A stretch of 44,410 nt of DNA from a bacterium (GCA_021798015.1 JAJZYP010000004.1:1-44410); one strand, 5' to 3'; shown: positions 8,418 through 42,266, numbered from the stretch's first letter. The notes: generated by a model from the letters alone, not told the origin. Program-made: numbers and translations.

Positions 8418-8419
8418 TT

Positions 8420-21903: not shown

Positions 21904-22281
21904 ATGGCAAACAAACTTTTTATTATGCTTCAAAACACTACACCTTCTAGCCCACATACCCTTGGAGCGCCATTTTTTCAAGCTGCAGCCGCCGCAACAA
22001 TGGACTATGAAGTAGAGGTTGTTTTAACGGCTGATGCCGGTCTTTTAATGAAAAAGGGAGTGGCTAAAAACTTAAGAGTCAAAGAGGGAAGCCCAAAATC
22101 AGTCTATGATTTTATTAAAGATGCTTATGACGCCGGCGTTGTTTTTAAGGTATGCACCCCTGCCCTTGAATTAAACGATATTACAAAAGACGACCTTATA
22201 GAAGAATGCAGCGGGGTTGTCGGCGGGGCTTATGTTGTTGAAATGGTAATGGATGATAATGTTAAAACCCTTTCATACTAA
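21904..22281 (+). CDS. DsrE/DsrF-like family protein
   Basis: 125 aa; preceded by AAAGGAGG; DsrE-like fold pattern with Cys in FKVCTPALELN and EECSGVVGGAYVVEM. Confidence 0.75.
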   Translation: MANKLFIMLQNTTPSSPHTLGAPFFQAAAAATMDYEVEVVLTADAGLLMKKGVAKNLRVKEGSPKSVYDFIKDAYDAGVVFKVCTPALELNDITKDDLIEECSGVVGGAYVVEMVMDDNVKTLSY

Positions 22282-22373: not shown

Positions 22374-23033
22374 TCATCCTACTTTTGAAAGATTATTGAG
22401 CGCATATTCTTTTACCCCTTCCAATAAGGTAAATCTATCAAGGATTACGGTTTCACACGGCATTGACCTTACAAAAAGCGGGTTATTTACAAGTCCGCCG
22501 GTTAAATATATCTTTTTGGGCTTTCTTGCAAATCTATACATCGAGATACAAACGCCTTTGATTAACCTTGCGGCAGCTATCTCAGGTTCCACACCTCCTG
22601 CCACAAAATCAAAAACATGCCCCATCCCAAGAAGTCCGCATGTGGCAGTTATGAATTCTTTTTGCGGCTCAATCTTTGAATAATCTATGTTTAGGTAATT
22701 ACCCAAAATCTCGATAGCCTGACCCGTAAAAGCGCCGCATTCGGTATTCCAATCCGAATGTATAAAATTCCTATTCTCAAAAACGACATATTTTGCATCC
22801 CTTGAGCCAATATCAAGCAGGGTAAAGGAGTCCTCTTTTATAAGTTTTTTACCGGCGTTAGCTAACGCTATAATCTCATTAACCGAATGCCGCGCAAACC
22901 TATTAATGTTATGACCTGTGCCTACGTCGGCTTTAAATGTTTTTTCAAGATCAGATACCCTTTTTACTATCTTATCGTTCGTATCGGTATTTAATATTTT
23001 AGCGTAAGTTGTTCCTGCATCAAGTAATACCAT
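22374..23033 (-). CDS. BadF/BadG/BcrA/HgdC-type ATPase (2-hydroxyacyl-CoA dehydratase activator-like)
   Basis: 219 aa; LLDAGTTYAKI, LLDIGSRDAKYV, NTECGAFTGQAIEILG, ATCGLLGMGHVFDFVAGG (HgdC-like Cys positions), IYLTGGLVNNP. Confidence 0.82.
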   Translation of the reverse strand: MVLLDAGTTYAKILNTDTNDKIVKRVSDLEKTFKADVGTGHNINRFARHSVNEIIALANAGKKLIKEDSFTLLDIGSRDAKYVVFENRNFIHSDWNTECGAFTGQAIEILGNYLNIDYSKIEPQKEFITATCGLLGMGHVFDFVAGGVEPEIAAARLIKGVCISMYRFARKPKKIYLTGGLVNNPLFVRSMPCETVILDRFTLLEGVKEYALNNLSKVG

Positions 23034-23055
23034 ATTTTACATCCCCATTTAAGCT

Positions 23056-23994
23056 TTATATAACATTATTTAATTGCAAGAATGCGGTTAATTTGGCTAC
23101 CGTGCTTCTCGTAAGCCCGATATCCATATCGATGAAAATTCCCCTTGGATGTTTGCCGGCAAGGTAAGATGCAAGACCCGCCTTTGGACAAAAACTCTGC
23201 GAAAAAAACACCGTCGGCACATCAGAGTCGAACTCTAATTCTAATTTAAGGTCTCCGGGGGTAAGATTTTCTACACACCTTGTCCAGCCGTAAACATGAG
23301 TTTCATCTGGAAAATAATTTGCGATACTAAAATCTCCCCAGGGCGGCGTCCCCCAAAAAGCGCATTTCGGTTTAACATATTCAGGTCTGAACGGTTTTTT
23401 CTTTTCTATATCGCGATAAAAATAGCCCGCTATTTTGCCAAATTTTTCATCTAAGGGGATACCGCTTTTACAAATAAAATCCCCTTTCCTTTCTAAGTCG
23501 TTATTTTTTACCCGTCTTAACTTAATTTTAAGTTCGTTTTCGATAAAATCGGCAACAAACCCCATTTCATTGCATCTGCAAATCTCGGAATCCTCGATGA
23601 TTATCTCCGCAATCGGATTTCTTCCGACCAAAACAGAATCCATCACGTCTTCGGTCCAATAATCCGTAACCGACAAAATATTGGCAATTATTCTTTTTAT
23701 TTGAGCGCAATATGCTTTGGGAAGTATGTTATCGGTAGGTTCGGTGATAAGCTGGTCCACCTTATACATATCCAATGATAGAATTATGGCGCTTTTTTGT
23801 ATTAACTCGGTCATTACCTCTTTTGGCGGAATGCCTATGATACCGACAAATGGCTTGTCTTTAGGGTTTTGAAGAAAGGATTTTTCTTTTCCTTGAACAA
23901 ATCCATGCCTCGTTAAAACCATATCCTGCATCGGATTATAATTTTTATCATCCTGTTTATCCAAATTATACGCACCCCTTTGTAATTTAGTCAT
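23056..23994 (-). CDS. HgdB/2-hydroxyacyl-CoA dehydratase-like subunit, divergent
   Basis: 312 aa; VGIIGIPPKEVMTELIQKSAIILSLDMYK...LPKAYCAQIKRIIANIL resembles the HgdB N-terminal segment; immediately upstream of the HgdC-like ATPase gene. Confidence 0.55.
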   Translation of the reverse strand: MTKLQRGAYNLDKQDDKNYNPMQDMVLTRHGFVQGKEKSFLQNPKDKPFVGIIGIPPKEVMTELIQKSAIILSLDMYKVDQLITEPTDNILPKAYCAQIKRIIANILSVTDYWTEDVMDSVLVGRNPIAEIIIEDSEICRCNEMGFVADFIENELKIKLRRVKNNDLERKGDFICKSGIPLDEKFGKIAGYFYRDIEKKKPFRPEYVKPKCAFWGTPPWGDFSIANYFPDETHVYGWTRCVENLTPGDLKLELEFDSDVPTVFFSQSFCPKAGLASYLAGKHPRGIFIDMDIGLTRSTVAKLTAFLQLNNVI

Positions 23995-26976: not shown

Positions 26977-27633
26977 CTATTTTAACGACTCAAGATATCT
27001 GGCAATCGTATTAAGTTGCGATGCGGGAATATTTTTAAATTCCGGCATTATCACAAGATAAGTATGACCGTTAATAGTAGCCGGAATTCCATAAGTAAAA
27101 TGTACTTTAGGATCTACTATCTGAGCTTCAATCCATGAAAGACTCCTCGTCTTACCAACATGGGAAAGGTCTGGACCAACATTTCCTCCTGCTCCATCTA
27201 TGCGATGACAGGCAATACAGTTATCCGCCCTGAAAAGCGCCAGCCCTGCAGGCGGTTTTTTATAAGCTAAATTTGCTCTTTTCTGTGGAAATGTTTTGAT
27301 ATACTCCGCCAATTTATTTACCACAGAAGGCGGAATAGTTTTAAAACCCGGCATTCTTACAAGATAAATCTTTTTGTTAATTTTTGTTTTAGTTCCCAAG
27401 ACAAAATGAGTGCCGGGATGCAGTATCTGGGCTTTAATCCAGGAAAGACTTTTTATCTTTCCAACATTGGAAAGGTCGGGACCGACTATTCCTCCCTCGT
27501 GTCCTAATGTATGACAATCGATGCAGTAGTATTTCTTAAAAAGTTTAGGTCCCGAGGGCATTGCAAAAGCAAAACTCGAAACAACAAAAATAATCGCAAA
27601 GCAAAGAGCCGCGATAAAAATATACTTTTTCAT
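26977..27633 (-). CDS. Exported diheme c-type cytochrome made of two tandem monoheme domains
   Basis: 218 aa, signal peptide, CIDCH and CIACH motifs; the two halves share GPDLS.VGK..SLSWI.AQI..P..HF. Confidence 0.95.
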   Translation of the reverse strand: MKKYIFIAALCFAIIFVVSSFAFAMPSGPKLFKKYYCIDCHTLGHEGGIVGPDLSNVGKIKSLSWIKAQILHPGTHFVLGTKTKINKKIYLVRMPGFKTIPPSVVNKLAEYIKTFPQKRANLAYKKPPAGLALFRADNCIACHRIDGAGGNVGPDLSHVGKTRSLSWIEAQIVDPKVHFTYGIPATINGHTYLVIMPEFKNIPASQLNTIARYLESLK

Positions 27634-27721
27634 TTCTTTTCCCTCCTTAATCTTAACTTATAATTAAACATTTAATTAAACATTTTTCTTTAAAACATTT
27701 ATTTAGAACAATCTCTTTAAA

Positions 27722-27771
27722 AATTATCCCTCCCCCGCCAAAGGGGGGCTTAAGAGGGGGGAGTGATAATT
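27722..27771. repeat. GC-rich palindromic element in an AT-rich intergenic region
   Basis: aattatccctcccccgcc...gggggagtgataatt: 15-bp arms (27722-27736 / 27757-27771) with one mismatch, enclosing c/g runs and cttaag. Confidence 0.75.
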
Positions 27772-27841
27772 ACGAATCATTGATGTATTATTCCCATCCT
27801 TTATTTACAATTATATTGCGAATAGCTTTTAATTTATGCAA

Positions 27842-27870
27842 GATAAATACTGATTTTTGTAAGATAAATT
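27842..27870. promoter_or_regulatory. Candidate operator box, copy A (GATAAAT direct repeats, 21-bp period)
   Basis: gataaatactgatttttgtaagataaatt; matches copy B at 40092-40120 in 28 of 29 positions. Confidence 0.6.
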
Positions 27871-27903
27871 TATATATAAAATGTAGGGGAAAAACCTATA
27901 CCG

Positions 27904-28560
27904 CTATTTTAAAATTTTAAGTTTTTCTATTATAAAATCTACGATTTCGGATTTCTTTTTAAAGCCCAATTTTTTTATTCCCCTTAAGCGATATGATGCA
28001 ATAGTCTTTTCACTCAATAAGTATTTTTCCGCTATTTCTTTATTTGTAAAACCCTTAACAATACCGAACATAACCTCCTTTTCCCTTGAACTTAAACTAT
28101 TCCAGAGAAGATCCACTTTACTTAACTCGTTAGCCCGGGTTTTGAACTGTGAATCACTCATAAATCCATCTATCATAGAAGGGTGAATATAAAACTCTCC
28201 CCTTGCCACTGTCTTTATTGCATAGATTAAATCATAATCCATGGCTTTTTTTACCAAAAAACCGGAAACACCCAAATCAAGAGCTTTTTCAAGATATTGT
28301 CTATCTTTATGCTTAGTAAGCATCAATATTTTTGACTGCGGCGATATCTTTTTAAACTTTGGAATGAAATCCAGTCCGTTTACATCCTGCAAACATATAT
28401 TAAACAATATAATGTCGGGTTTTTTTGATTTCACAAGCTTAATAGCAGATGATATATCTTGCGCCATACCAATCACTTTCATATCATCATAACTATTGAA
28501 CAAAACCTTTAAGGCGGTAAGTAATATATAGTGATCGTCAACTATACATATTGTTATCAT
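27904..28560 (-). CDS. NarL/LuxR-type response regulator with degenerate receiver (Asp to Asn at phospho-acceptor)
   Basis: ITICIVDDHYILL..IILFNICLQDVNGLDF..MLTKHKD..GFLVKKAMD, then LuxR HTH (SSREKEVMFGIVKGFTNKEIAEKYLLSEKTIASY). Start taken at the internal ATG 28560; ORF track extends to 28602. Confidence 0.93.
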   Translation of the reverse strand: MITICIVDDHYILLTALKVLFNSYDDMKVIGMAQDISSAIKLVKSKKPDIILFNICLQDVNGLDFIPKFKKISPQSKILMLTKHKDRQYLEKALDLGVSGFLVKKAMDYDLIYAIKTVARGEFYIHPSMIDGFMSDSQFKTRANELSKVDLLWNSLSSREKEVMFGIVKGFTNKEIAEKYLLSEKTIASYRLRGIKKLGFKKKSEIVDFIIEKLKILK

Positions 28561-28603
28561 CTCTCGCTCCGCAAACGGTTTATATAAAAATCGGATTATC
28601 ATT

Positions 28604-28715: not shown

Positions 28716-31700
28716 TCAAATCTTTTCTATCCTAACCGGAGCATAGTAATAAACCATCGAGCCGCCCACAGGGTCCGTCAAAACGGTCGTCCATCCGTCT
28801 TTAGCCTCAATGGATTTGTCTAATAAAAATAAGGCGTTGGGATGAACTCCGACATTTCTTGCAGGATCCCCTTTATATTTTTTCCCGTTTATATACCATT
28901 CGCCCGAGCCGTAAAGCCATCTTCCAAAGGCCGTTGCAGCCGTAATAACACCGGGTCTGATAGAAGGTAAAATCCTTACACGATGAATAATTCCTTTTTG
29001 ATATGTTGGCGATATTACCTTTATAGTATCTCCGTCGGATAAGCCTAATCTTTTGGCATCTACCATGCCAATTTCCCAAAAAGCGTCCGGCAATAGTTCC
29101 TGAAGCCAGGGATCCGCCATTGTTCTTGATTTGGAATGTATCGGCTGCCTGTGGGTCGAGACCATATATGGGTACTCTTTATTGGAATAAATCTTATCTA
29201 AATCTTCACCTTTCATATTTCTAGAAGGCAGTAAGACGGTTGTTCCGTTGAACCTTTCTCCCGTTATAGCATTGTGCGCGGTTGCAACATCCTCGTTATA
29301 CAAATTAACAGGCGTTTTGGGTCCCCACAAATGAGTTACCCATCTCGGTTTTCCCCACGGAAGATAGCCAACGTCGTAATCCTCAAAGCGTCCGCCTCTC
29401 GCAATAACATAAGCAACCTTTTTCCACTCGGCAGGTTTAAGTGTTTTTCCATGCTTTTTTATGTATTCTTTTACATATTGCATCTCATCCGCATTTGCAT
29501 CAGGCACGGGACCTAAATGAACAAACCCGTTCCCCTTTCTTTTTAGAAAAGTTTTGCTGTCATATGCCACATTGGCAGCCATTTTAAGGTAATAATCCTC
29601 CATTTCGTTTAAAGCCCCGCCCTCGAGGAACGCATTTTCGCCAAAACCGGGAAGTTTAAGCTTCTTTGCAACATCTATTAAGAAATTTTCCATACAGATG
29701 GGTCTTCCGTCGGAAGTTTTTTCCGTCATAGACTCTATAATGGGCTGTCTAATCGATGTCCTTGCTGTCGGATATGTCGGAAGATTTCCAAGAAATCCCC
29801 AATTCTCTAAATATGTTGCGTCCGGAATTATATAATCGGCATAAGCCGAACTTTCCGAAATCATAATGTCCGATGCTATAAATAACGGGGCTTTATCCAA
29901 ATCTTTTATCATTTGCATCCATGGTTTTGATTCATCATCTACTCCTCCCATAGCCGGCATAGACCATGCAGGGTTTGCCATATGCTGAAAGAGAATTTTT
30001 ACAGGATAAGGGTACTGAAAATATGTTCCGCCCCAGATCTCCTGCCACATGCCGAAACTAAAAGGAAACCACGGTCTTTCGGCAGGATACGGCGAGATAC
30101 CCCTTGCAACCCTGTCTTTATATTCCATAGTTTTCTCATAAAAAGAACCTTCCCTGGATATCTTTACACCCTTTGCAGGAACAAAGTCAGGCCACTTTCC
30201 TAAATCATAAGGATAACCCTTGCCTCCCATTACGTTGGCGCTGCCTCCGCCGTTAATATAGCCTCCCTGCCAGTTAACATTACCCACCATCACATTTAAA
30301 AACTGAATAGCCCTGCCGTGATAAAATCCGTTAGTATGTTTTACGGGTCCCCTGTAATAATCCGCCACTGCCGTTTTGCCATGAGAAGTAAACTCTGCCG
30401 CCAGTTCAGGTATTACCCTTGGGGCAAGCCCTGCTTCCTTAGCATAATCCTCTGTGGTATGCTTTACTAATTCAGCCCACAACATTTGCATACCTGTCAT
30501 GCAATTAACGCCGTTTACCTGAACGGGGGTAAGGGATAAAAATCCAGTAGGCCATAATTCGCCTTTCATCGAAACCGAGGTCAAAACAGGATTTTTCGTA
30601 AACTTATCTATTGCATAAAATGAGCTCTCGTTCTTTAAAAATTTGGCAAAATCCTTATTCCCCTCATCTGTAACCACAAGATACGAGGCATTTGAAAAGT
30701 TGGGTTCACCGTTAGCGTTTGCAGCGCCGTGATTTAGATTTTCAAGGAAATTCCCGTCATATCTTTTATTTTCTATTATCCACCTTAACATGCCCATTGC
30801 TAAAGCCCCGTCGCCGCCGGGTTTAATAGGTATATATTTATCTGCATGAGCTACCTGATTGCCTGCTCTGACATCTATTACAACTATTTTTAACTTACCT
30901 GATGAAGTGGCGGCTACAGACCTTCTTGCTAAAGTCTGCATAGGGAAATTGGCTTCTAAATAATTGGCTCCAAAAACCAAAAGATATTCGGAATTGGGTA
31001 AATCAGGTTTTAACATATTCGTTCCCGGAAATGTCCTGAAAGTGGATACATGATGGGACAGCTCACAGATTGAAACGTGGGGTAAGGCATTAACGGAACC
31101 AAATGCATTGGCAAATCTTGTAATAAAATTGGCTTGACCCCCTTCAGCCCTGCCCCAATAACTTACAAACTGATTGGTTTTTGGACCAAAATCCGGATAT
31201 TTGGGGTTTGCAGAAATAAACCTGTTTTTGCCTTCATTCCATAAGTGTTTAAATCCCTCCACATATCTTTTTTCCTCGCCGGGTATATCTTTAAATAAAT
31301 ATCCGCCGTTAACTACTTCATCTATTAACTGCTCATAGGAAATTACTTTAAATTTCTTAGAGCCCCTTTCCCCGACTCTTTTTAATGGCATATATATTCT
31401 GTAAGGGTCATAAACCGTCTGTCTTCCTGCTACGCCCCTGGGACATACTGAATGCGCGCCATCTATGAACGGTTGCCCACTCGGCGAATAATACGACCCC
31501 GTGTAAATTATGGATTCCTTTACGGGCGTCGAATAAGTTATATTTGGTTCCGTAGTTTGTATATCGTAAGGGTTGCCAAAAATAGGCAATATCGTTCCAT
31601 TAAACTTTCTAACCATTATTCCGCAATCGCTATGACACTGCTTGCAGGTGGAATATTTAACCTCTTCGTTTGGCCAAGTTTCTGGTCTGGCCGGAAAAGT

Positions 31701-31817
31701 ATATTCGCCCTGATAATGAAATAACCCCCCTGCCCATTGAGTTAAACCTGCGCCTGTTGCTACTGCGGACACCCCAAAAACCCCGTACTTAAGAAAATCT
31801 CGTCTATTTATTGCCAT
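28716..31817 (-). CDS. Molybdopterin oxidoreductase catalytic subunit (Psr/Phs/Ttr-like complex iron-sulfur molybdoenzyme), TAT-exported
   Basis: 1033 aa; NRRDFLKYGVFG TAT signal; CKQCHSDCGIMVRKFNG..HSVCPRG [4Fe-4S] motif; probable Mo-ligand Cys in LPHVSICELSHH; C-terminal molydopterin-binding domain (STHRQPIHSKSRT). Confidence 0.93.
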   Translation of the reverse strand: MAINRRDFLKYGVFGVSAVATGAGLTQWAGGLFHYQGEYTFPARPETWPNEEVKYSTCKQCHSDCGIMVRKFNGTILPIFGNPYDIQTTEPNITYSTPVKESIIYTGSYYSPSGQPFIDGAHSVCPRGVAGRQTVYDPYRIYMPLKRVGERGSKKFKVISYEQLIDEVVNGGYLFKDIPGEEKRYVEGFKHLWNEGKNRFISANPKYPDFGPKTNQFVSYWGRAEGGQANFITRFANAFGSVNALPHVSICELSHHVSTFRTFPGTNMLKPDLPNSEYLLVFGANYLEANFPMQTLARRSVAATSSGKLKIVVIDVRAGNQVAHADKYIPIKPGGDGALAMGMLRWIIENKRYDGNFLENLNHGAANANGEPNFSNASYLVVTDEGNKDFAKFLKNESSFYAIDKFTKNPVLTSVSMKGELWPTGFLSLTPVQVNGVNCMTGMQMLWAELVKHTTEDYAKEAGLAPRVIPELAAEFTSHGKTAVADYYRGPVKHTNGFYHGRAIQFLNVMVGNVNWQGGYINGGGSANVMGGKGYPYDLGKWPDFVPAKGVKISREGSFYEKTMEYKDRVARGISPYPAERPWFPFSFGMWQEIWGGTYFQYPYPVKILFQHMANPAWSMPAMGGVDDESKPWMQMIKDLDKAPLFIASDIMISESSAYADYIIPDATYLENWGFLGNLPTYPTARTSIRQPIIESMTEKTSDGRPICMENFLIDVAKKLKLPGFGENAFLEGGALNEMEDYYLKMAANVAYDSKTFLKRKGNGFVHLGPVPDANADEMQYVKEYIKKHGKTLKPAEWKKVAYVIARGGRFEDYDVGYLPWGKPRWVTHLWGPKTPVNLYNEDVATAHNAITGERFNGTTVLLPSRNMKGEDLDKIYSNKEYPYMVSTHRQPIHSKSRTMADPWLQELLPDAFWEIGMVDAKRLGLSDGDTIKVISPTYQKGIIHRVRILPSIRPGVITAATAFGRWLYGSGEWYINGKKYKGDPARNVGVHPNALFLLDKSIEAKDGWTTVLTDPVGGSMVYYYAPVRIEKI

Positions 31818-33022
31818 TATAAAGCCTCCTTATTTTTATCATTTATTTCTCCCGCTTCATGTTCCCATCCCAAAAAATAGCCAAAAATAAATATCAAAAG
31901 GATGCCAATCCCAAATAGCCCTATACCTGTTAAATATCCGTCATAACCCCAGAAAGGGATACGCAAATTAACGAGTCCCTGTCCGATTTTAACCGGAAGC
32001 TGCCCACCTATAACCGTATCGAATCTCATTTCCCAGACGCCTACTGTAACGATAAAATCAAGAATTAAAGTCCAGACTAACGATCTTCTGATCTTTTTAA
32101 ATACAAGAAACAAAAATGCCGGAATTATAAGTCCAAGCCCTATCTGCAGAACATGATAATTAAACCACAACGGGCCGTGCCCTGCAAAACTATATACCGC
32201 ATGCCAGTTGTCATACACCTCTTTGGAACTATATCCTCTGACCGAATAGAGCCACTCTATCAAGTCGAAAAAAAGGTCTGCAAATATCGCATAAACCAAA
32301 GACTTATTAAGAACTTCTAATGTATCAGGTTCAACTTTGTTTTTATCCGAAAAAAGGGTAAAGCCGATGCCGTATAATAAACCCACAAAGGCTATACCGG
32401 ACACAACGGCAGAGCTTATAAACATAGGGGGTATATCGGGATCCGACCACAAAGCCCTTGCCTTAATGGCGCCGAATAAAAATCCAACATAGCCGTGAAA
32501 TAAGACGGAAAGAATAATTCCTATAATTGATATTATCCAGAGAGCCTTATGGTCTCTTATTATACTTTTTTGGGATAAATCAGCGCTTCCAAGTGATAAA
32601 ATCCTTGCTACCTTTCCCCTTATCCCATTATCTTCACGCGCCCTTTTAATATTACTTTCTCTAAAAAGATAATAAAGTTCAAAAAGAAAGGCTATGACAA
32701 ATATTGTCCATATAATAATAAACATTGCTAATGGCGAGTATGGGAAATGATCTCTGAAATATAATTCCCATATGGCTCTTGAAGGTTGAAGCGCATCAGC
32801 TAAAGGCGCTGCTGCTGCCAGTAAAAGCATCGCAAAACTTGCTATGAGCGCAAGTTTGGATATAGGCTTGAGCTTTTCTATGTTAAAAAGATGATATAAA
32901 GCGCCCACAACAAAAGAACCCGCTAAAAGTCCTGAAAGAAACGGGTAAATTACTATAGGTAATCCCCAATAAATATTTTCTAAAGTACCGTAAGAACCAT
33001 TAATTGCAATCATAATATTCAC
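31817..33022 (-). CDS. NrfD/PsrC-type membrane subunit
   Basis: 401 aa polytopic protein (YWGLPIVIYPFLSGLLAGSFVVGALYHLF) between the Fe-S and Mo subunits. Confidence 0.9.
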   Translation of the reverse strand: MNIMIAINGSYGTLENIYWGLPIVIYPFLSGLLAGSFVVGALYHLFNIEKLKPISKLALIASFAMLLLAAAAPLADALQPSRAIWELYFRDHFPYSPLAMFIIIWTIFVIAFLFELYYLFRESNIKRAREDNGIRGKVARILSLGSADLSQKSIIRDHKALWIISIIGIILSVLFHGYVGFLFGAIKARALWSDPDIPPMFISSAVVSGIAFVGLLYGIGFTLFSDKNKVEPDTLEVLNKSLVYAIFADLFFDLIEWLYSVRGYSSKEVYDNWHAVYSFAGHGPLWFNYHVLQIGLGLIIPAFLFLVFKKIRRSLVWTLILDFIVTVGVWEMRFDTVIGGQLPVKIGQGLVNLRIPFWGYDGYLTGIGLFGIGILLIFIFGYFLGWEHEAGEINDKNKEAL

Positions 33023-33054
33023 TCCTTAAAATAAATTTTGAAATTAGCCTGCAT

Positions 33055-34152
33055 TTAACCTGCATATGGATATTCTCTCTCCTCCATATACGGTAATACC
33101 GGCGCTCCGCCAAGTTTTTCATAAGCGGTAGCTTCTAAACCCATTGCATAAGTGTAAACCATCTTAACTTTTTCGGGATTAGTCTGATCAGCAAAATTCT
33201 CGTCAAGACCTATATACCAAATCTGCGGATCGGTCCCTACGCCGGTTCTTAGCCTTGAAGTTTTTTTAGTTGCTATTAATTTTGAAACCTCGCTCTGCGG
33301 GTCGTTTAAATCCCCAAATTTCATTGCTCTTCCTACACATGAAGTAACACAAACCGGTAAAAGCGGGGTATATGATTTTTCATGGGAAACTGCCGCCCTG
33401 CCTGCGCACATATTACACTTATCCGCGGTATGCTGAACGGGATTTGCAAACCTCATATCATATGGACAAGCCTGAACACAGGTCAGACACCCTATACACA
33501 GATCATAATCTATTTCGACCTGACCGGTTTGCAGTTTATATGTGGCTTTTACAGGACACACCTCCACACATGGGGGATGATCGCAATGATTGCATGTTCT
33601 TGGAAGAAAAAACCGTTTAACGTTAGGAGTATAATTCCCCTCATCTGTCACGACTACGCCATTTTCATCCGGAACCATCTCCCCCGTCTCCATTACCTGC
33701 ACCACCCTTCTAAATACCCCTAAAGGTACGGTGTTTTCACTTTTACAGGCAACAACGCAAGCCTGACACCCCACACATTTATTTATATCTATTACAAAAA
33801 CAAAATGATGTATTTTAGGCCTAATTCCCTTTATCCTGTAAAACTTATCATGAAAAATCCGCGCATGCAGTGGATTTTGTATTGTATTCTGCCAGTGGTC
33901 CCATCCATCATTTATGTACTGCGAGGGATCCATCCACCCCATCCACCTGTGATTTTTTAAAGGTCCTGTCGGAACCCCCGCGCCTTTTTCCGGAACACGT
34001 GAAATCCTTTTCAAAACCTTTCGTTTTAATGGAGAGGCTAAAACCTTCCCGGGCAAAGAAAAAATAGATGTTCCTATCCCAGCAGCAGTTAATCCGCCTA
34101 AACCCATCATTTTTAAAAATCTTCTTCGTGAACTCTTTTTCTTTTTCATCAA
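33055..34152 (-). CDS. Four-[4Fe-4S] electron-transfer subunit (PsrB/TtrB-like), TAT-exported
   Basis: 365 aa; SRRRFLKMMG TAT signal; DINKCVGCQACVVACK, CNHCDHPPCVEVCP, CIGCLTCVQACP, CNMC. Confidence 0.95.
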   Translation of the reverse strand: MMKKKKSSRRRFLKMMGLGGLTAAGIGTSIFSLPGKVLASPLKRKVLKRISRVPEKGAGVPTGPLKNHRWMGWMDPSQYINDGWDHWQNTIQNPLHARIFHDKFYRIKGIRPKIHHFVFVIDINKCVGCQACVVACKSENTVPLGVFRRVVQVMETGEMVPDENGVVVTDEGNYTPNVKRFFLPRTCNHCDHPPCVEVCPVKATYKLQTGQVEIDYDLCIGCLTCVQACPYDMRFANPVQHTADKCNMCAGRAAVSHEKSYTPLLPVCVTSCVGRAMKFGDLNDPQSEVSKLIATKKTSRLRTGVGTDPQIWYIGLDENFADQTNPEKVKMVYTYAMGLEATAYEKLGGAPVLPYMEEREYPYAG

Positions 34153-34161
34153 CTTGCCTCC

Positions 34162-35220
34162 TTAATTATTAATTAAATCAGGGACCCTAAATATCCCCGA
34201 AGGAGCCTGAACAGGAATATTCTTAATCTCTTTTCCCGTTCCGACATTAAAAACATTTACGGAATTACCAAAATAACTTGATGCGTAAATGAGTTTACTA
34301 TTTCCGGAAAAGCTCATAAACATAATCCTTCTTCCCGCCTTTATGTTTTTTATAACCTTCATATTTTTTGCATTTATAAGGCTTAAATAATCATGAGCTG
34401 CACCGCTGTAATTTATGGCTATTACCCTGTGATTCGGGGAAAAGATTATAAAGATGGGATAGCCTATCAAGCTAACGGAGCCTATTTTCTTTTTAGTCTT
34501 TAAATTCATAATGACTAATTTTTTCTCTCCCACGGCGGGTATAAAGGCTTTACCTTCCCACACCGAATAAATGCCGTAATGAGGTATTTGATGAGAAAAT
34601 TTTTCCGTTTCCCCGTAGTTTATGATATGATATTTCATACTATTTAGGTTTAATACTCCAAACTTCTCACCTAAAAGGAAAGCCGCTATATAATCGTGAT
34701 CGGACATAAGGGCATCTATCGGCATACTTCCTATATTTTTTATCTTCTTTATGACCTTAAAATTTTTAGAAATATCAACAACCCATATCTGGTCCTTACC
34801 CATCAACTCAAATATCAGATAATCTTTATAAAACTCTATACCTATATTCCTTGAACCGGTTTTTATAGTTTTTATTATGTTTAGATTTTTATTAAGCACG
34901 ACAACATCTTTTGGGGTATAATTCGCCACTGCTATTAAATTTTTCGATAAGCAAAAATCCACCGTGTCATCCGATATCTTCTTTTGCGCTATAATTTTGT
35001 CGGTTTTTGTGTCTATTTTCGATAAATAGCCATTTCTACTGATTGCGTAACCGTAACGGCTTCCAAAATATACTATGACATGGGTTCCGTTCCCGATATT
35101 CTTTATCTGACCCGTTAATTTGTTATGCGATATAATGCCAAGCGAACTGCTTGCCCTTTCCACCACATAAAACTTACCTGCAAAGGCAGGTTTTAAGAAG
35201 ATAAAACCAACTGTTACCAT
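34162..35220 (-). CDS. NirF-like heme d1 biosynthesis/binding propeller protein, exported
   Basis: Signal-like MVTVGFIFLKPAFAG, propeller blades; GKAFIPAVGEKKLVIMNLKTKKKIGSVSLIGYPIFIIFSP, NYSG, SSYFGNSVNVFNVGTGKEIKNIPVQAPSGIF resemble NirF. ATG at 35220 lies 8 nt after the nirJ-like stop; the ORF-track start at 35334 would overlap it. Confidence 0.82.
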   Translation of the reverse strand: MVTVGFIFLKPAFAGKFYVVERASSSLGIISHNKLTGQIKNIGNGTHVIVYFGSRYGYAISRNGYLSKIDTKTDKIIAQKKISDDTVDFCLSKNLIAVANYTPKDVVVLNKNLNIIKTIKTGSRNIGIEFYKDYLIFELMGKDQIWVVDISKNFKVIKKIKNIGSMPIDALMSDHDYIAAFLLGEKFGVLNLNSMKYHIINYGETEKFSHQIPHYGIYSVWEGKAFIPAVGEKKLVIMNLKTKKKIGSVSLIGYPIFIIFSPNHRVIAINYSGAAHDYLSLINAKNMKVIKNIKAGRRIMFMSFSGNSKLIYASSYFGNSVNVFNVGTGKEIKNIPVQAPSGIFRVPDLINN

Positions 35221-35228
35221 AAAACAAA

Positions 35229-36326
35229 TTACATAAAACAGGCGGGGTCTTCCTGAAAATAATCCCCATAAACCGCATAAGCCCTTGCCCTTGAACCTCC
35301 GTTGCAAACTTCTAAGTAATTGCATTTTGCACACCTGCCTTTTAGTTTTCTTGGTGTTTGTCTTAATTCGGAAAATAATTTATCGCCGTTTATTATGTCT
35401 AAAAAATCCCTATCTTTAATATTGCCCGCATTATAATCAAAAAAGGGATCCGGTTTAACAAAACCGGAATAATCTATGTTTATTATTCTTTTACCGGATT
35501 GATTTCCTCCCCACTTTAGTATGTTACTATGTATATTTTCATAAAACTCAGGGTATAACTGTTTAAACCTATTTAATAATAAAACTGCATCCGGCTCATT
35601 GTTTCCGGTAACTATATCTATGGGCACACCCTGTTCAACAAATTCAAAAGCCTTTTTTATGATGGACAAAGACACTTCTTTGTGAAGTCTTTTATTCATA
35701 TCAGTTAGCTTAGAGCCGCGGCCGGCATAGACAAGATGGGATATATAGACCTTTTTTATCTTTTCTTTCTTTGCCAGTTCAAATATAAAATCAATATCTT
35801 TATAGTTATGTCTTGTAAGTGAAATCCTTAAACCCACATTAATACCATTATCCCTGAGCAGTCTTAAAGTATTTAAAGATGCATTAAACGCCCCCCTTTT
35901 TTGCCTGAAACTATCGTGTGTCTTTTCGTTTCCGTCTAAACTGATACCGACATAATTAAAAAGGGATTTTATATTACCCAAATCCTTTTGCTTTATCATC
36001 GTACCGTTTGTAGATAAATGGGTTGCAAAACCTTCGTTTTTAAGTATTTTTGCTATATCAAAAAGATACGGCGACATTAGGGGTTCTCCGCCAGAGAGTA
36101 TAACCGCCTTTATATTGGCTTTCTTTAAAGACTTAACTGTCGATAAGATAAGCTCCGGGGTTATATTGGCTTTTTCCCCTGCCACTGAAAAAGAGTAACA
36201 GTGTTCGCATTTAAGGTTGCAGGCGCTCGTTATATTCCATATTAAGAGACCGCCGCTACCTGTTTTCTTAAAACTTTCTAAATCAGGTGTTAATGATTTT
36301 TTAATATAGTTAGTTATTCTAAGCAT
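35229..36326 (-). CDS. NirJ-like radical SAM/SPASM protein
   Basis: CNLKCEHCYSFSV, ILSGGEPLM, VGISLDGNEKTHDSFRQKRGAFNASL, KVYISHLVYAGRGSKL (NirJ-like), C-terminal CAKCNYLEVCNGGSRARAYAVYGDYFQEDPAC. Confidence 0.88.
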   Translation of the reverse strand: MLRITNYIKKSLTPDLESFKKTGSGGLLIWNITSACNLKCEHCYSFSVAGEKANITPELILSTVKSLKKANIKAVILSGGEPLMSPYLFDIAKILKNEGFATHLSTNGTMIKQKDLGNIKSLFNYVGISLDGNEKTHDSFRQKRGAFNASLNTLRLLRDNGINVGLRISLTRHNYKDIDFIFELAKKEKIKKVYISHLVYAGRGSKLTDMNKRLHKEVSLSIIKKAFEFVEQGVPIDIVTGNNEPDAVLLLNRFKQLYPEFYENIHSNILKWGGNQSGKRIINIDYSGFVKPDPFFDYNAGNIKDRDFLDIINGDKLFSELRQTPRKLKGRCAKCNYLEVCNGGSRARAYAVYGDYFQEDPACFM

Positions 36327-38077
36327 CAGTTTCCACGCCTCCAGAAATTTTTGTTATCCGAATCGCGAATAAAAGCGATAAGCGCTTTGAACTCCTGTTT
36401 GGTCAATTTGAATCTCGGCATAGCATTATGTTTATATCTCAGCAGTTTGGAAACTCCGTTCGGGTCTGTTATTTGCGCATTAATTTCATTATCGTTCAAG
36501 TGTTTTGCTATATATGAAAAAGATGGTCCTATTGACTCTAACGTGGGGTTATGACACCCCCAGCAATAGGTAAAGTAAACCTCTTCTCCGAGAAGCGCCG
36601 CTTCATTCATTCTTTGATAGTTTACATAATTATATTTGCCTATAACGTCCTGCGCAGGTATATCCTTAACAATTTTTAACGAATTTGTATTTATAATCGC
36701 AAGTTCGCCATTTTTACCGTAAACGCTCACATAGGCTAATCTCTCGTTTCCGGAAAACTGCGTATGTATAACAAGACCGCCCCTTTTTACAACAACTTTT
36801 TTAGTATGAAAATCATGCTTATTTATCAATATGTCGGCACCAGAACTGTTATCCACCCACAGATATTTCGTATAAGGATTTGTTTTTACAAAAAAACCAG
36901 CCCCGCCCGTATATACATTTCTTATAAATTTCCAGTCATACATCCGCCATATCGAAACATACGGCGTCTTTAAGTTTGTTAGTGCAAAATAAAATCTGCC
37001 TTTTCTAAACCAGAAAGCCGCACCTGCCGGGTGAGGAATACCTGTTGATTTATGAGACCAAACCATCTTTTTTGTTTTAAGATTAAAAACATTGAGCGTA
37101 CCGCCTTTAAAAGACCCTCCGATAGCATACTCATCCAATGGATCTACAAAGAAATCCTGAAAGGTGATTTTGGTTTTGTAATAAGATGCGTTTAACGTAT
37201 TTGTGTTCAGTATTCCTATTTGGGGCTTATGTATAAAAGAAAATACGGCTTTATCGGTTCTAAATAAACCGTAAATTACGCTAACCCTGTGCTTTAAAGG
37301 TATTATCTTTTCAGGTTTGAGATTCTTTGCATTTAAAACAACGATTGATTTTGGAAGCCAGCAGGCAGCTAAGACATATGCCCCGCCCTCGGATAACGAA
37401 ATATTCCTTAGATAACGGCAGGCTCTCACCTTATAAGCTAATCTTTTAGTATAAAAGTCATACTTGCCTATATAACCGGTTGTAGAGGGAAGATATAAAT
37501 ATCTTCCCGATGGGGAATATTTGAGACCCCCGTGTATATTGTTAAAATCGAACTTGTTTAATATCTTTTCCTTTTTCATTATCCAGACTTTACCCGTCCC
37601 GCCCTCCACCACCGCCATAAGATTTTTTACATTTACGGGCTTAACATTTTTGTTCTTTTTTCTGCCATATCTTATAAGACTGTTTTTTATATCCCCTTTA
37701 GTCCAGTAAACCCTTTTTGAAGGCGATCTTAGATAGTTTATTAGATAAGATAAATCCTTAGGAGATAACCCATTGAATGAAGGCATGGGTATCGGAAATA
37801 AACCCTTCGTTATAATGGTTTTAAGTTTTTTATAAGAGTAATGACCTATAAAGGCTGGTATAAGCGGAGGGGCAGATTTTCCGAGCCTGTTCACCCCGTG
37901 GCATACAAAACAGCCATAATCCATATATACCTTATGCCCCGGTTTTTGAGTATGCGTTAGTTTATATTTAAAGGAGTTTTGGGCATTTACCGGAATGGAA
38001 AAATACAATATTAAAGAAACCGTGAATATTATTATTGTCTTGATTACATTATCGAATGTATTATTGGGAGATTTCAT
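36326..38077 (-). CDS. Cytochrome c - d1-type propeller - cytochrome c protein (NirS/NirN-related)
   Basis: 583 aa; signal peptide; N-terminal GCFVCHGVNRLGKSAPPL; central segments IHGGLKYSPSGRYLYL, STGIPHPAGAAFW, GGAGFFVKTNPYTKYLWVDNSSGADI and YVSVYGKNGELAIINTNSLKIVKDIPAQDVIGKYNYVN align by eye with the NirS d1 domain; C-terminal CWGCHNPTLESIGPSF. Confidence 0.85.
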   Translation of the reverse strand: MKSPNNTFDNVIKTIIIFTVSLILYFSIPVNAQNSFKYKLTHTQKPGHKVYMDYGCFVCHGVNRLGKSAPPLIPAFIGHYSYKKLKTIITKGLFPIPMPSFNGLSPKDLSYLINYLRSPSKRVYWTKGDIKNSLIRYGRKKNKNVKPVNVKNLMAVVEGGTGKVWIMKKEKILNKFDFNNIHGGLKYSPSGRYLYLPSTTGYIGKYDFYTKRLAYKVRACRYLRNISLSEGGAYVLAACWLPKSIVVLNAKNLKPEKIIPLKHRVSVIYGLFRTDKAVFSFIHKPQIGILNTNTLNASYYKTKITFQDFFVDPLDEYAIGGSFKGGTLNVFNLKTKKMVWSHKSTGIPHPAGAAFWFRKGRFYFALTNLKTPYVSIWRMYDWKFIRNVYTGGAGFFVKTNPYTKYLWVDNSSGADILINKHDFHTKKVVVKRGGLVIHTQFSGNERLAYVSVYGKNGELAIINTNSLKIVKDIPAQDVIGKYNYVNYQRMNEAALLGEEVYFTYCWGCHNPTLESIGPSFSYIAKHLNDNEINAQITDPNGVSKLLRYKHNAMPRFKLTKQEFKALIAFIRDSDNKNFWRRGN

Positions 38078-38115
38078 AAGTTTGCCTATTTAAACTTTTA
38101 ACAGTTTTGATTTAA

Positions 38116-39222
38116 TTATGGTTTTACAAAATTATAGTCTGAATAACCCAAAAAATTGCTCCTTAATACGTCAGAAAACTCATTGTTATTATTAAAAGCT
38201 CCGTATATCCTGTAACCGCAAAACCCGCATGAGCCCTCAGGCGTTATTTTAATATCCTTTGGGAACAAGCCGATTCTTTCTACCACAGTGTTTTCGCATG
38301 ACGGACATACGGTATTTATATGTTCGCCTTCGCCTAAATTACCTGTGTAAACATAATTTAAACCGTGGGTTTTTCCGATTTCATAAGCCCTTTTAATGGA
38401 GGATAGGTCCGTTTCTTTTATATCTTTCATTTTGTAATAAGGAATAAATCTTAAAACATGCCATGGAATATCTTTGCTTACCTGTGCAATATATTTTGCC
38501 AAATTTCTAAGTTCTTCCTCCGAGTCGTTATGCCCTTCTATTATAGTGGTCGTCAGTTCTATGTGAATGCCGAAGGAAAACATTTTCTCTATTGTATTTA
38601 AAACTGGCGACAGCGTTCCTCCGCACATTTTTCTATAGGAACGGTCGTTAAAAAACTTAATATCGATATTTGCGGCATCTATGTAATTTTTAAGAATATT
38701 TATCGACATATCGGTTAAATATCCGTTAGTTACAAAAACATTTTTCAGCCCCTCCCTCAATGCTTTTTCCATAGTATCCAGACTGTATTCGAAGAATACG
38801 GCGGGTTCGGTATATGTGTAGGAAATGGACTTTGCCCCTACCCTCAGAGCCCTTTCGATAATCTTATCAGGCATTGTTTCTTGAATAGAATTTATTTTAT
38901 CTAAATATAGCTTGTAGTTTTCATCTTTATAAACCTGAGATATACCGGCATTCAAACATCCGTTACATCTAAAATTACAGCCGGGGGAAGCAACCGAGTA
39001 CGAAAATGAGCCTGGAAGAAAATGAAAGAGGGGTTTTTTCTCGATACGGTCATTAGACTGCGCAACTACGATGCCATAATTTGTGTCATATAACACTCCC
39101 TTTATATTCTTTTTGGCATGACAAATTCCAAATTTATCTTCCCTTATTTTACATTCATGCGCGCATATATGACACACAACATATTCTTTTTCTGTTGTAA
39201 ATAGTTTTATTTCTTTTAACAT
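38116..39222 (-). CDS. AmmeMemoRadiSam-type radical SAM enzyme (PflA-like)
   Basis: CHICAHECKIREDKFGICHAKKNIKG, FHFLPGSFSYSVASPGCNFRCNGCLNAGISQ, SYTYTEPAVFFEY, GFCGYRIYG. Confidence 0.88.
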   Translation of the reverse strand: MLKEIKLFTTEKEYVVCHICAHECKIREDKFGICHAKKNIKGVLYDTNYGIVVAQSNDRIEKKPLFHFLPGSFSYSVASPGCNFRCNGCLNAGISQVYKDENYKLYLDKINSIQETMPDKIIERALRVGAKSISYTYTEPAVFFEYSLDTMEKALREGLKNVFVTNGYLTDMSINILKNYIDAANIDIKFFNDRSYRKMCGGTLSPVLNTIEKMFSFGIHIELTTTIIEGHNDSEEELRNLAKYIAQVSKDIPWHVLRFIPYYKMKDIKETDLSSIKRAYEIGKTHGLNYVYTGNLGEGEHINTVCPSCENTVVERIGLFPKDIKITPEGSCGFCGYRIYGAFNNNNEFSDVLRSNFLGYSDYNFVKP

Positions 39223-39234
39223 AATAAACCCGAA

Positions 39235-39609
39235 TTATTTTAAAGATGTTAAATATTGCGTAAGTTTATTAAGGTTTGCATCGCTTATTTTTTTATTTGC
39301 AGGCATAATCGACTCATATACCTTTCCATGAAACATAACAAAAGAATTGGGCGTAAAAAAATTTAATTTAGGATTTCTTATCTGCCTCCTAATCCATGAA
39401 TATGTTCTTATTTTGCCGATAGCGGAAAGATTTGGACCAAACGAACCGCCCTTTCCATGAATAGCATGGCACAAAATACATCCATCCTTTTTAAATAATT
39501 GTTTACCGGTCATGGCATAACTCACCTTTAAGTTTATTGCAATAATCCCTATTATAAAAACCACCAATAAAAACATCCTTTTCATGATTTTATCTCCCGT
39601 AAATAACAT
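39235..39609 (-). CDS. Monoheme c-type cytochrome, exported
   Basis: 124 aa; signal peptide; CILCHAIHGKGGSFGPNLSAIGKIRTYSWIRRQI...ESIMPANKKISDANL. Confidence 0.94.
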   Translation of the reverse strand: MLFTGDKIMKRMFLLVVFIIGIIAINLKVSYAMTGKQLFKKDGCILCHAIHGKGGSFGPNLSAIGKIRTYSWIRRQIRNPKLNFFTPNSFVMFHGKVYESIMPANKKISDANLNKLTQYLTSLK

Positions 39610-39679
39610 AAAATTCCTTTATCTATAAAAAAAATATAAATATAAACTGAAAAATGCACCTTTATCGGCTAAAATAACG

Positions 39680-40009
39680 TTATTTTAGCGATTCCAAATA
39701 CTTAGCAACCGTTTCAAGTTGTGCGGGTTTTAAATGAAAATGAGGCATTATAGATGATGGATCATGTTCACCTGGATTGGTAATCTGCACTTCGAGCCAG
39801 TGAATACTGTGTCCTTTTTCACCTTCCTTTGAGAGATTAGGTCCCATCGAGCCGCCAACACCGTTGATTGTATGGCACGAAAGACACCCCTCGGCATTAA
39901 TAACCTTCATAGCATTTTTCTTTAAACCCTGAGCACTGGCGTTCCCATAAAAAAGAACTATCGTTAAAAATATAGATAAAATAACAGTAAGCATCCTATA
40001 ATTTTTCAT
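39680..40009 (-). CDS. Monoheme c-type cytochrome, exported
   Basis: 109 aa; signal peptide; GCLSCHTINGVGGSMGPNLSKEG...SSIMPHFHLKPAQLETVAKYLESLK. Confidence 0.95.
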   Translation of the reverse strand: MKNYRMLTVILSIFLTIVLFYGNASAQGLKKNAMKVINAEGCLSCHTINGVGGSMGPNLSKEGEKGHSIHWLEVQITNPGEHDPSSIMPHFHLKPAQLETVAKYLESLK

Positions 40010-40168: not shown

Positions 40169-40825
40169 TTATTTATGTTTTAAAATTTTAAGCTTAAAAA
40201 AAATTAAATCCACTAATTCGGATTTATTTGAAAAACCCAATTTTTCCATCCCTCTTGAACGGTATGTCGCAACGGTTTTTTCGCTCAAAAAATGCCTTTC
40301 GGCAATTTCTTTATTTGTAAAACCCTGGGCAATACCGATCATAACCTCTTGTTCTCTTTTACTTAAAGTGTTCCATAGAGATTCTTCTCTGCTAAGATTA
40401 TGAATAGAGGGTTTATCTGCATTTATAAAATTTTCAAGCATCGAAGGGTGAATGTATATTTCTCCCCTTGCCACCGTCTTTATTGCATAGATTAAATCAT
40501 AATCCATGGCTTTTTTTACCAAAAAACCGGAGGCGCCTGCGTCAAGAGAACTTTGCATATATTGTTTATCTTCGTACATGGTTAAAATTAATATTTTGGA
40601 GTTAGGCGAGGCCTTTTTAATTCTTGGAATCAAATCGATTCCGCTAATTTTCGGCAAAGACAAATCAAGCAGAATAACATTGGGGGTTTTTGCTTTTATA
40701 AGTTCAACGGCAGCTAAAGCATCGTTAGCCGTTCCGACAACATTAATGCCTTCTTGATCGTCCAAAAATACTTTTAAAGTTGAGGTCAGTATGGAATGGT
40801 CATCAACTAATACTACTGTTATCAT
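40169..40825 (-). CDS. NarL/LuxR-type response regulator
   Basis: ITVVLVDDHSIL, phospho-acceptor VILLDLSLPKISG, LTMYEDKQYM, GFLVKKAMD; LuxR HTH SKREQEVMIGIAQGFTNKEIAERHFLSEKTVATYR. ORF track extends to 40849. Confidence 0.95.
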   Translation of the reverse strand: MITVVLVDDHSILTSTLKVFLDDQEGINVVGTANDALAAVELIKAKTPNVILLDLSLPKISGIDLIPRIKKASPNSKILILTMYEDKQYMQSSLDAGASGFLVKKAMDYDLIYAIKTVARGEIYIHPSMLENFINADKPSIHNLSREESLWNTLSKREQEVMIGIAQGFTNKEIAERHFLSEKTVATYRSRGMEKLGFSNKSELVDLIFFKLKILKHK

Positions 40826-42266
40826 TTGTATTCTCCAAATAACCGGCAAGCGGAATACTGAATTTAACTACTGTTCCTAAATCTTTTTCGGATTCGATAG
40901 TCAATTCACCGCCAAGTAATTTTGCCCTTTCTTTCATGCTATTTATTCCCAGATAATCCTTATTCCCCTCAAAACATTCAAAACCAACCCCATCATCTTC
41001 GATAATCCCCCTAATTTTCCCCTCGCATACCTTATCAAGAATTATCGTAACGGAACTTGCAAAAGCATGACGAACAACATTTAACAGCGCCTCTTGAACT
41101 ATTCTGTATATATTAATCTCTATATGCTTATCCAATCTATAATTTTCAAGATTGATATGATAAAAATCTATTTTTATGTTGGGATTATTTTCAACGGCAT
41201 CGGCAATATATAGATTAATAGCATTAACTAATCCCATTTCATCGAGTATGCTTGGTCTTAAGTTTTTAGCTATATCATGTATAAGACTTAGCCCTTCCAT
41301 TAAATCACCCCTTATTTGATGAATTTTATCTTTGATTTTACCTAACTCGTTCACATCATCAAGCATTCTAAGTTTTATTTTTACGGAAGAAAGAAATTGG
41401 CCGACACTATCATGTAAATCTCGGGATATATTTTTTCTTTCTTCCTCCTGTGCATTGATTACACCGCTTATAAAATTTTTCCTTAAGTTTTCATTTTTAA
41501 TCCTTTCCTGTTCCGCTTCCTTTAAACTTAAAGCCATTTCGTTAAAGGCTTTCGAAAGCTTCCCTATTTCATCATCCCTTGCTATATTTACATTGACATC
41601 ATAGTTGCCTCTCTTTACTTCTTCAGTGGCATCTGAAAGCTTAACCAGAGGGGTTATTAGCCACCATGTAATAGCGCTAGATAATCCTATTATTAAAAAA
41701 GCTGCAAATATAGTAATAATAGTAATATATTTAATTAATAAAAGGGGTGTTCTCTTAGCGCGGTTCAAAGACAGCCCAACTCTCACAATTCCGAGTTTAC
41801 CGTTAAGTATAGGGGCGGATGTATTCCATATCTTTCCATATACAGAGCTTGTTAATTTGACGGAAGATAAATGTTGGGGCGCATTATTATTATACTCTGA
41901 TTGTTTTTTTATATAGCCAAAAATAAAAAAGCCTTTTTGAAAAGCAGAAGCAATGATTTTTCCACTATTATTTTCGACAAAGATATATAAGATATCATTA
42001 TCATTTAAAATTTCATTTTTTAACAAACTATTGAGTCGATTAAAATTCCTATTAAGAATAAAATCCGCAGACTCTTTTGCCGTCTGTTTTCCAATAACCC
42101 TACTCATTAATTTTGTATCATGCGAGATTTCCCCTATATAGGATGAGGAAATAGATAATAACATGAAAATTCCCAAAAAAAGGATTCCAAATATAAAAAG
42201 ACCGATGAATTTAATCCTTAAAGAAACATTAATAAATTTTTTCCAAATATTTTTTAATAATGTCAT
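40803..42266 (-). CDS. NarX/DegS-type sensor histidine kinase (two TM, HAMP, HisKA_3, HATPase)
   Basis: N-terminal TM, extracytoplasmic segment, second TM, HAMP (PLVKLSDATEEVKRGNYDV), ISRDLHDSVGQFLSSVKIKLRML, HATPase G-boxes (IIEDDGVGF); overlaps the regulator start. Confidence 0.94.
   Translation of the reverse strand: MTLLKNIWKKFINVSLRIKFIGLFIFGILFLGIFMLLSISSSYIGEISHDTKLMSRVIGKQTAKESADFILNRNFNRLNSLLKNEILNDNDILYIFVENNSGKIIASAFQKGFFIFGYIKKQSEYNNNAPQHLSSVKLTSSVYGKIWNTSAPILNGKLGIVRVGLSLNRAKRTPLLLIKYITIITIFAAFLIIGLSSAITWWLITPLVKLSDATEEVKRGNYDVNVNIARDDEIGKLSKAFNEMALSLKEAEQERIKNENLRKNFISGVINAQEEERKNISRDLHDSVGQFLSSVKIKLRMLDDVNELGKIKDKIHQIRGDLMEGLSLIHDIAKNLRPSILDEMGLVNAINLYIADAVENNPNIKIDFYHINLENYRLDKHIEINIYRIVQEALLNVVRHAFASSVTIILDKVCEGKIRGIIEDDGVGFECFEGNKDYLGINSMKERAKLLGGELTIESEKDLGTVVKFSIPLAGYLENTNDNSSIS

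Follow-up and report, generated by a model that had tools for sequence, protein, structure and literature searches.

Does a bacterium without the cytochrome cd1 nitrite reductase NirS still have a use for heme d1, the rare green heme of nitrite-respiring bacteria? The question is raised by a 44,410-nucleotide stretch of bacterial DNA (GCA_021798015.1 JAJZYP010000004.1:1-44410; hereafter the window), which covers 44.4 kb of a 47.6-kb contig in a fragmented metagenome-assembled genome (MAG; 2.1 Mb, 184 contigs, 79% complete). A preliminary description of the window had proposed that nine consecutive minus-strand open reading frames (ORFs) at 28716–40009, with short gaps or overlaps, encode a d1-propeller cytochrome and NirJ- and NirF-like proteins together with a molybdenum (Mo) complex of Psr/Ttr-like type. 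All nine ORFs are present at these positions, and the joint encoding of the two sets is borne out by family models from Pfam and NCBIfam. Our interpretation, to which we assign a probability of roughly 0.4, is that the operon specifies a NirN-derived heme-d1-type enzyme acting in nitrogen-oxide metabolism, most likely in the conversion of nitrite to NO, with the co-regulated Mo complex as its partner.

A conserved operon in an uncultured lineage

Of the 30 genomes in the window's family, 11 carry the same block at ~66–90% protein identity (61 genomes were searched; the family genomes are MAGs), and the neighbourhood is thus conserved in relatives. Gene order in the carriers is cytochromes c, c-d1-c protein (a d1 propeller between two cytochrome c domains), NirJ, NirF, iron–sulfur (Fe-S) subunit, NrfD subunit and Mo subunit; identity to the window is 68–76% for the c-d1-c protein and 79–87% for the Mo subunit. 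Because the copies in G021 and G029 are nearly identical, about 10 of these loci are independent. The G016 contig stops within the Mo gene, and five public MAG contigs that were also compared presumably hold the same loci as five of the 11 carriers. Ratios of nonsynonymous to synonymous polymorphism (pN/pS) lie at 0.11–0.28 overall, with values of 0.11–0.14 for the Mo gene and 0.19–0.28 for the three d1 genes. The block is under purifying selection, and its recurrence with such low ratios argues that the locus is not a product of chance. The lineage, apparently one of uncultured bacteria of acid mine drainage, is presumably Candidatus Acidulodesulfobacterales, a placement drawn from MAG origin and gene content rather than computed. 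The paper on that group names neither tetrathionate nor nir genes but does record norB and nosZ for a single MAG (PMC6776010).

The c-d1-c protein is a NirN homologue

Both propellers of the operon, in the c-d1-c and NirF-like proteins, match the d1 family model PF02239, as expected of d1-type proteins. The preliminary description had called the c-d1-c protein cd1-like; in the sense of NirS, this label is contradicted by structure matches, residues and phylogeny. Compared with solved structures, the protein matches NirN (PDB 6rtd) at E 4.7e-50 and NirS at 2e-12, and in our tree it falls inside the NirN clade, where its nearest outside relatives are NirN proteins with a C-terminal cytochrome c (NirN-c) from G292 and G156. 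Alignment with NirN, NirS and relatives shows that the NirN residue set is kept, namely the proximal His, the His of GMPH, the His of VAGH and the Tyr of SGKYN. These are H181, H348, H437 and Y481 (A1 numbering, full-length minus 1), all invariant in 10 orthologues, and we take them to correspond to His147, His323, His417 and Tyr461 of NirN, a numbering checked against four residues of the 6rtd chain that all show the same offset of 34. His147, His323 and Tyr461 were reportedly found essential in NirN by Kluenemann in 2019. Of the NirS residues, equivalents of His182 and His369 are present and that of His327, the His of LHD, is absent; where most NirS proteins have the Phe of TGKFN, the c-d1-c protein has Tyr, as in NirN. 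By descent, as read from these alignments, it is a homologue of NirN (dihydro-heme-d1 dehydrogenase) with an added C-terminal cytochrome c. AlphaFold2 gave no usable model for the c-d1-c orthologues (mean pLDDT, the predicted local distance score, 51).

This architecture also exists elsewhere. Of 386 genomes sampled outside the family, a minority yielded NirN-like proteins. Five of these, from other phyla (G292, G156, G232, G362 and G239), have nirS followed by nirN with a C-terminal cytochrome c, then nirJ and nirF; COX1-family (NorB-like) and NorQ genes come next in G292. The c-d1-c architecture, shared by several other families, is therefore not unique to the window, and we found no description of it in the open-licence literature. 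The window's block resembles part of a denitrification cluster from which nirS has been lost. Elsewhere, in L095 (G346:C23), a cytochrome d1 protein that is sister to NirS in the tree (7765–9474) lies within 6 kb of a NirF-like protein (12355–13509) with 36% identity to that of the window. A pentaheme cytochrome is encoded between the two, and the 19 kb contain no NirJ; this is perhaps another non-standard d1 system.

A route to d1-type heme without NirS

Siroheme and 12,18-didecarboxysiroheme are common to the syntheses of heme d1 and of heme b by the alternative pathway. The window's genome encodes a fused AhbA-AhbB siroheme decarboxylase that scores over both NCBIfam cut-offs, as well as an AhbC/AhbD-like pair, and the siroheme decarboxylase domain PF17805 occurs in 26 of the 30 family genomes. 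With AhbAB available, NirJ and NirF from the locus complete the path to a d1-type heme even though the operon has neither nirE nor nirDLGH, and the heme-d1 pathway set of siroheme decarboxylase, NirJ, NirF and NirN is all encoded.

The NirJ-like protein scores 361 bits with TIGR04051 against 216–302 bits with the AhbC, NirJ1 and pseudo-SAM models; this is below the curated cut-off of 515 bits, yet TIGR04051 is the best of all models. Its CX3CX2C and CX2CX5CX21C motifs agree with the cluster motifs described for NirJ (CX3CX2C and CX2CX5CX20-21C; PMC10548856). That the protein might really be AhbC is ruled out by the tree, where it groups with NirJ proteins and away from the AhbC and AhbD of the same genome, and by the presence of that separate pair.

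The NirF-like protein matches solved NirF (PDB 6tv2) at E 4.9e-32. H85 and H252 are invariant; a Lys is replaced by Gln at 249 and a His by Phe at 339, where the original residues are present in all other NirF proteins compared. Gln249 occurs in all 11 loci examined, and Phe339 in the loci aligned or matched. NirF is described as introducing the keto groups of heme d1 together with NirC, with one Lys, one Arg and two His as essential residues, given without residue numbers (PMC13168839). The nirJ and nirF reading frames share ~100 bases (window 35229–35334), an overlap kept in relatives L049–L053, which suggests translational coupling or a true nirF start further on.

What enzyme, then, receives the cofactor? 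In the 30 family genomes, PF02239 returns nothing above background except the c-d1-c and NirF proteins encoded at the locus, hence no NirS, and NirK, NarG and NapA are all without a match over cut-off. NapA-model matches reach only 109–135 bits against a cut-off of 930, and some have an in-frame TGA, which suggests formate dehydrogenases with selenocysteine. The canonical denitrification set (NarG or NapA with NirS or NirK) is thus not encountered in these genomes. A 470-residue ORF on G000:C78 with a weak PF02239 match was considered as a third d1 protein and set aside as a repeat-type propeller that has no CxxCH and also occurs in locus-free genomes. One paper places heme d1 in cytochrome cd1 alone, that is, NirS (PMC6054029); a complete heme-d1 route without NirS therefore implies another heme-d1 enzyme. 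Such an enzyme is probably at work in this lineage, possibly on nitrogen oxides.

Nitrogen-oxide genes near the operon and its relatives

Genome content and gene position both point towards nitrogen oxides. qNOR is encoded in seven of the 11 carriers and three of the 19 non-carriers (Fisher p 0.015). G002 has the order qNOR, cytochrome c, c-d1-c remnant, NosZ, NosR, in which the remnant is a 46-residue C-terminus with 62% identity (L152, G002:C8, 11089–11226). Standing between a qNOR-linked cytochrome and NosZ, it links the c-d1-c gene by position to NO and N2O reduction. In G020 the order is CydAB, Rrf2, RIC, cytochrome c, qNOR, PhnD, kinase, regulator, Fe-S, NrfD, contig end, so that RIC, cytochrome c and qNOR stand immediately before a d1-free copy of the Mo operon; another such copy, in G028, is directly preceded by CydAB and Rrf2.

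The Mo complex is a separable module

The Mo genes encode a complex iron–sulfur molybdoenzyme of the Psr/Ttr type, as first described, with a Mo subunit bearing a signal for twin-arginine translocation (Tat), a four-cluster Fe-S subunit and an NrfD subunit encoded together. The N-terminal twin-arginine motifs are RRDFLK in the Mo subunit and SRRRFLK in the Fe-S subunit. TtrA is the best model for the Mo subunit at 563 bits, under the NCBIfam TtrA cut-off of 1750, and the protein differs from TtrA by tree and by its Mo-ligand motif (CELSHH vs CGLAYR). The plasmid record that matches it best encodes a Citrobacter complex (38% identity); by motif and identity, the complex is nearer to this Citrobacter/Escherichia coli plasmid complex than to TtrA. 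The closest plasmid relative, on a Citrobacter arsenatis plasmid (L086, 6031–10835), is an Fe-S/NrfD/Mo complex within an arsenic-resistance island. In G006 (L009, 9343–12438), the d1-linked Mo subunit has Ser for the Mo-ligand Cys (SISEPS vs SICELS).

The preliminary description had looked to co-occurrence of the Mo subunit with the c-d1-c protein. The two do occur together in the 11 carriers, but the Mo complex also stands in d1-free operons of the family. These copies are 65–85% identical (second copies in G002 and G021, and copies in G004, G015 and G028; outside the family, G141), usually with a TorD/NarJ-like chaperone and some with a PhnD-like protein. The Mo complex is therefore independent of heme d1, and the two modules are separable.

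Extent of the operon

The conserved unit exceeds the nine genes first described (Table 1): a kinase and response regulator lie upstream (40169–42266), and downstream there follow another regulator and a diheme cytochrome (26977–28602). The AmmeMemoRadiSam gene, which had been counted among the nine, is carried only by the window and L007, and we rejected it as a part of the system. An assignment of the small cytochromes as NirC is unsupported: relatives occur in d1-free Mo operons (that of cytochrome c A precedes the Fe-S gene in L138 and L139), and NirC references are not among the best matches listed.

Table 1. Genes of the operon and its conserved flanks, in order of transcription (window coordinates)
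Feature	Position	Strand	Basis and remarks
Sensor histidine kinase (HAMP/HisKA_3) of the operon	40803..42266	-	Pfam; precedes response regulator in most loci
Response regulator RR1, NarL/LuxR-type	40169..40849	-	Family models; conserved across loci
Cytochrome c A, monoheme, predicted exported	39680..40009	-	PF00034
Cytochrome c B, monoheme, predicted exported	39235..39609	-	PF00034; conserved
AmmeMemoRadiSam-type radical SAM protein, optional	38116..39222	-	TIGR04337 279.5 bits (cut-off 220)
c-d1-c protein, NirN homologue with extra C-terminal cytochrome c	36326..38077	-	PF02239 130 bits; N- and C-terminal CxxCH domains
NirJ, heme-d1 radical SAM enzyme	35229..36326	-	TIGR04051 361 bits
NirF-like periplasmic d1 propeller, start uncertain	34162..35334	-	PF02239 84 bits; overlaps nirJ
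Fe-S subunit, four-cluster, predicted Tat-exported, TtrB/NrfC/DsrO-like	33055..34152	-	TtrB model 186 bits
NrfD-type membrane subunit	31817..33022	-	PF03916 121 bits
Mo-bisPGD (bis-pyranopterin guanine dinucleotide) catalytic subunit, predicted Tat-exported, TtrA-related, CELSHH Mo-ligand motif	28716..31817	-	TtrA model 563 bits
Response regulator RR2, NarL/LuxR-type	27904..28602	-	Homologue after Mo gene in most d1 loci, not L007
Diheme cytochrome c, predicted exported	26977..27633	-	Conserved at locus 3' end, 66–80% identity

In one locus (L006, 2400–9790) the small cytochromes and the c-d1-c gene are separated by an insert that encodes several cytochromes with multiple CxxCH motifs, a lipoprotein with a propeller, and a porin-like protein whose N-terminus bears a CxxCH. 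The insert is reminiscent of iron-oxidation proteins of the Cyc2/Cyt572 type; its extra cytochromes and porin-like protein are specific to one strain. Elsewhere in the window, inspection by eye suggests an acyl-CoA dehydratase activase-like gene and its neighbour (22374–23994) and a small DsrE-like protein (21904–22281).

A model for the operon and its alternatives

We propose that the operon joins a d1-type cofactor module to a Mo module. AhbAB would provide 12,18-didecarboxysiroheme, normally destined for heme b, and NirJ would strip two propionates from it. The next steps, in the periplasm, would fall to NirF and a cytochrome c, and the last to the NirN-type c-d1-c protein, which would complete the cofactor. 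The c-d1-c protein could retain this cofactor and serve as the working enzyme, drawing electrons from its own two cytochrome c domains and from the small cytochromes; we infer this role for the protein itself because no family genome encodes NirS. It would convert nitrite to NO, to be handed to qNOR where present. In the second module, the Tat-exported Mo/Fe-S/NrfD complex would act on the quinone pool and on an oxyanion, for which nitrate is one candidate, and a single two-component system would govern both modules. Tentatively, a d1-type cofactor, possibly altered through the residues lost from NirF, would serve a NirN-derived, non-NirS enzyme within a Mo/NrfD operon as a d1-dependent terminal enzyme, perhaps in a nitrate-to-NO route without Nar, Nap, NirS and NirK.

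Several observations weigh against nitrite reduction by a NirN-derived enzyme, of which retention of the cofactor and nitrite as the substrate would be the weakest steps. NirN is described as a biosynthetic enzyme, and the c-d1-c protein is thus related to the last enzyme of the heme-d1 pathway. Of the two nitrite-site histidines of NirS, the His327 equivalent is missing; this lowers the likelihood of nitrite reduction and does not exclude it, because Chloroflexi NirS proteins also do not keep this residue universally (PMC8756737). Since NirF has lost its conserved Lys and His, the cofactor made may differ from standard heme d1. The qNOR association falls to p 0.13 within genus g6 alone, the genomes being related and not independent, and qNOR was not found in four of the 11 carriers, among them G006 (99% complete) and the MAG of the window (79% complete). 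Finally, G004 and G015 have the Mo complex with neither qNOR nor d1 genes.

It is rather doubtful that the c-d1-c protein is an ordinary NirN making heme d1 or dihydro-heme d1 for some other, unrecognised protein. Every NirN catalytic residue is kept, and in the other phyla examined NirN has a distinct NirS at its side, but the carriers have no further strong PF02239 protein, and their remaining weak matches are generic repeat propellers without CxxCH that locus-free genomes share. Respiration of a sulfur or arsenic oxyanion, with the Mo/NrfD complex and the c-d1-c protein in one chain and the d1 heme as electron outlet or terminal reductase, is also unlikely, and we rate it lower. It would fit TtrA as the closest model to the Mo subunit, the arsenic-resistance setting of the best plasmid match, a TauE gene after the d1-free copy in G002, PhnD-like binding proteins before the kinase, and a habitat that is probably sulfur- and metal-rich acid mine drainage; against it stand the Mo complexes apart from d1 in several genomes, the resemblance of the d1 genes to part of a denitrification cluster and the linkage to qNOR and NosZ. 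The preliminary description had raised a new sulfur or other oxyanion respiration, an idea that keeps this small share of probability, but the nearest functional genes, qNOR, RIC and NosZ, concern nitrogen oxides. That the block is a decaying remnant whose nirS is gone and whose other genes are on the way out is very improbable: nirS is missing, G002 holds a c-d1-c fragment and NirF has lost two conserved residues, but 11 of 11 carriers have full-length ORFs with invariant catalytic residues, pN/pS is low in the three d1 genes, and order is conserved within a regulated operon.

If a NirN-derived enzyme does act on nitrite here, it could supply the missing nitrite step of a lineage equipped with NO and N2O reductases and with none of the known NO-forming nitrite reductases. 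More broadly, the locus offers a small gene set for testing a non-NirS heme-d1 enzyme.

Relation to known systems

NirN itself (PDB 6rtd/6rte) shares with the c-d1-c protein an N-terminal cytochrome c, a d1 propeller and the four catalytic residues; the c-d1-c protein differs in its second, C-terminal cytochrome c and in genomes that lack a NirS client. The C1-C2-NirS fusion of Chloroflexi likewise joins two cytochrome c domains to a d1 propeller and does not universally keep His327, but it is a NirS with both c domains N-terminal, whereas the c-d1-c protein is a NirN with one of them C-terminal (PMC8756737). The nirS clusters of Pseudomonas, Paracoccus and Ruegeria also hold NirN, NirJ and NirF homologues and small cytochromes c together. 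In contrast, the window's operon has no nirS, nirDLGH or nirE, siroheme being decarboxylated by an AhbAB encoded elsewhere, and its NirN carries the extra cytochrome c and is co-encoded with a Mo complex. The NirN-c/NirJ/NirF blocks of the five outside genomes have the same architecture and gene order, but with nirS adjoining and no Mo complex in the stretches read.

For the second module, TtrBCA/TtrSR offers the same order of Fe-S, NrfD and Mo genes after a two-component pair, the PhnD-like protein of the d1-free copies and, in TtrA, the best-scoring family model; the window's Mo subunit is nevertheless only ~31% identical to enterobacterial TtrA, reaches about a third of the cut-off score and differs in the Mo-ligand motif. 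The Citrobacter/E. coli plasmid complex is the best plasmid match and shares the CELSHH motif, but has no d1 genes in the stretches read. The preliminary description knew of no characterised system that unites d1-type proteins with a Psr/Ttr-like Mo complex, and we found none described in the open-licence literature, although other literature may hold one. The arrangement is a new combination of parts that are all known.

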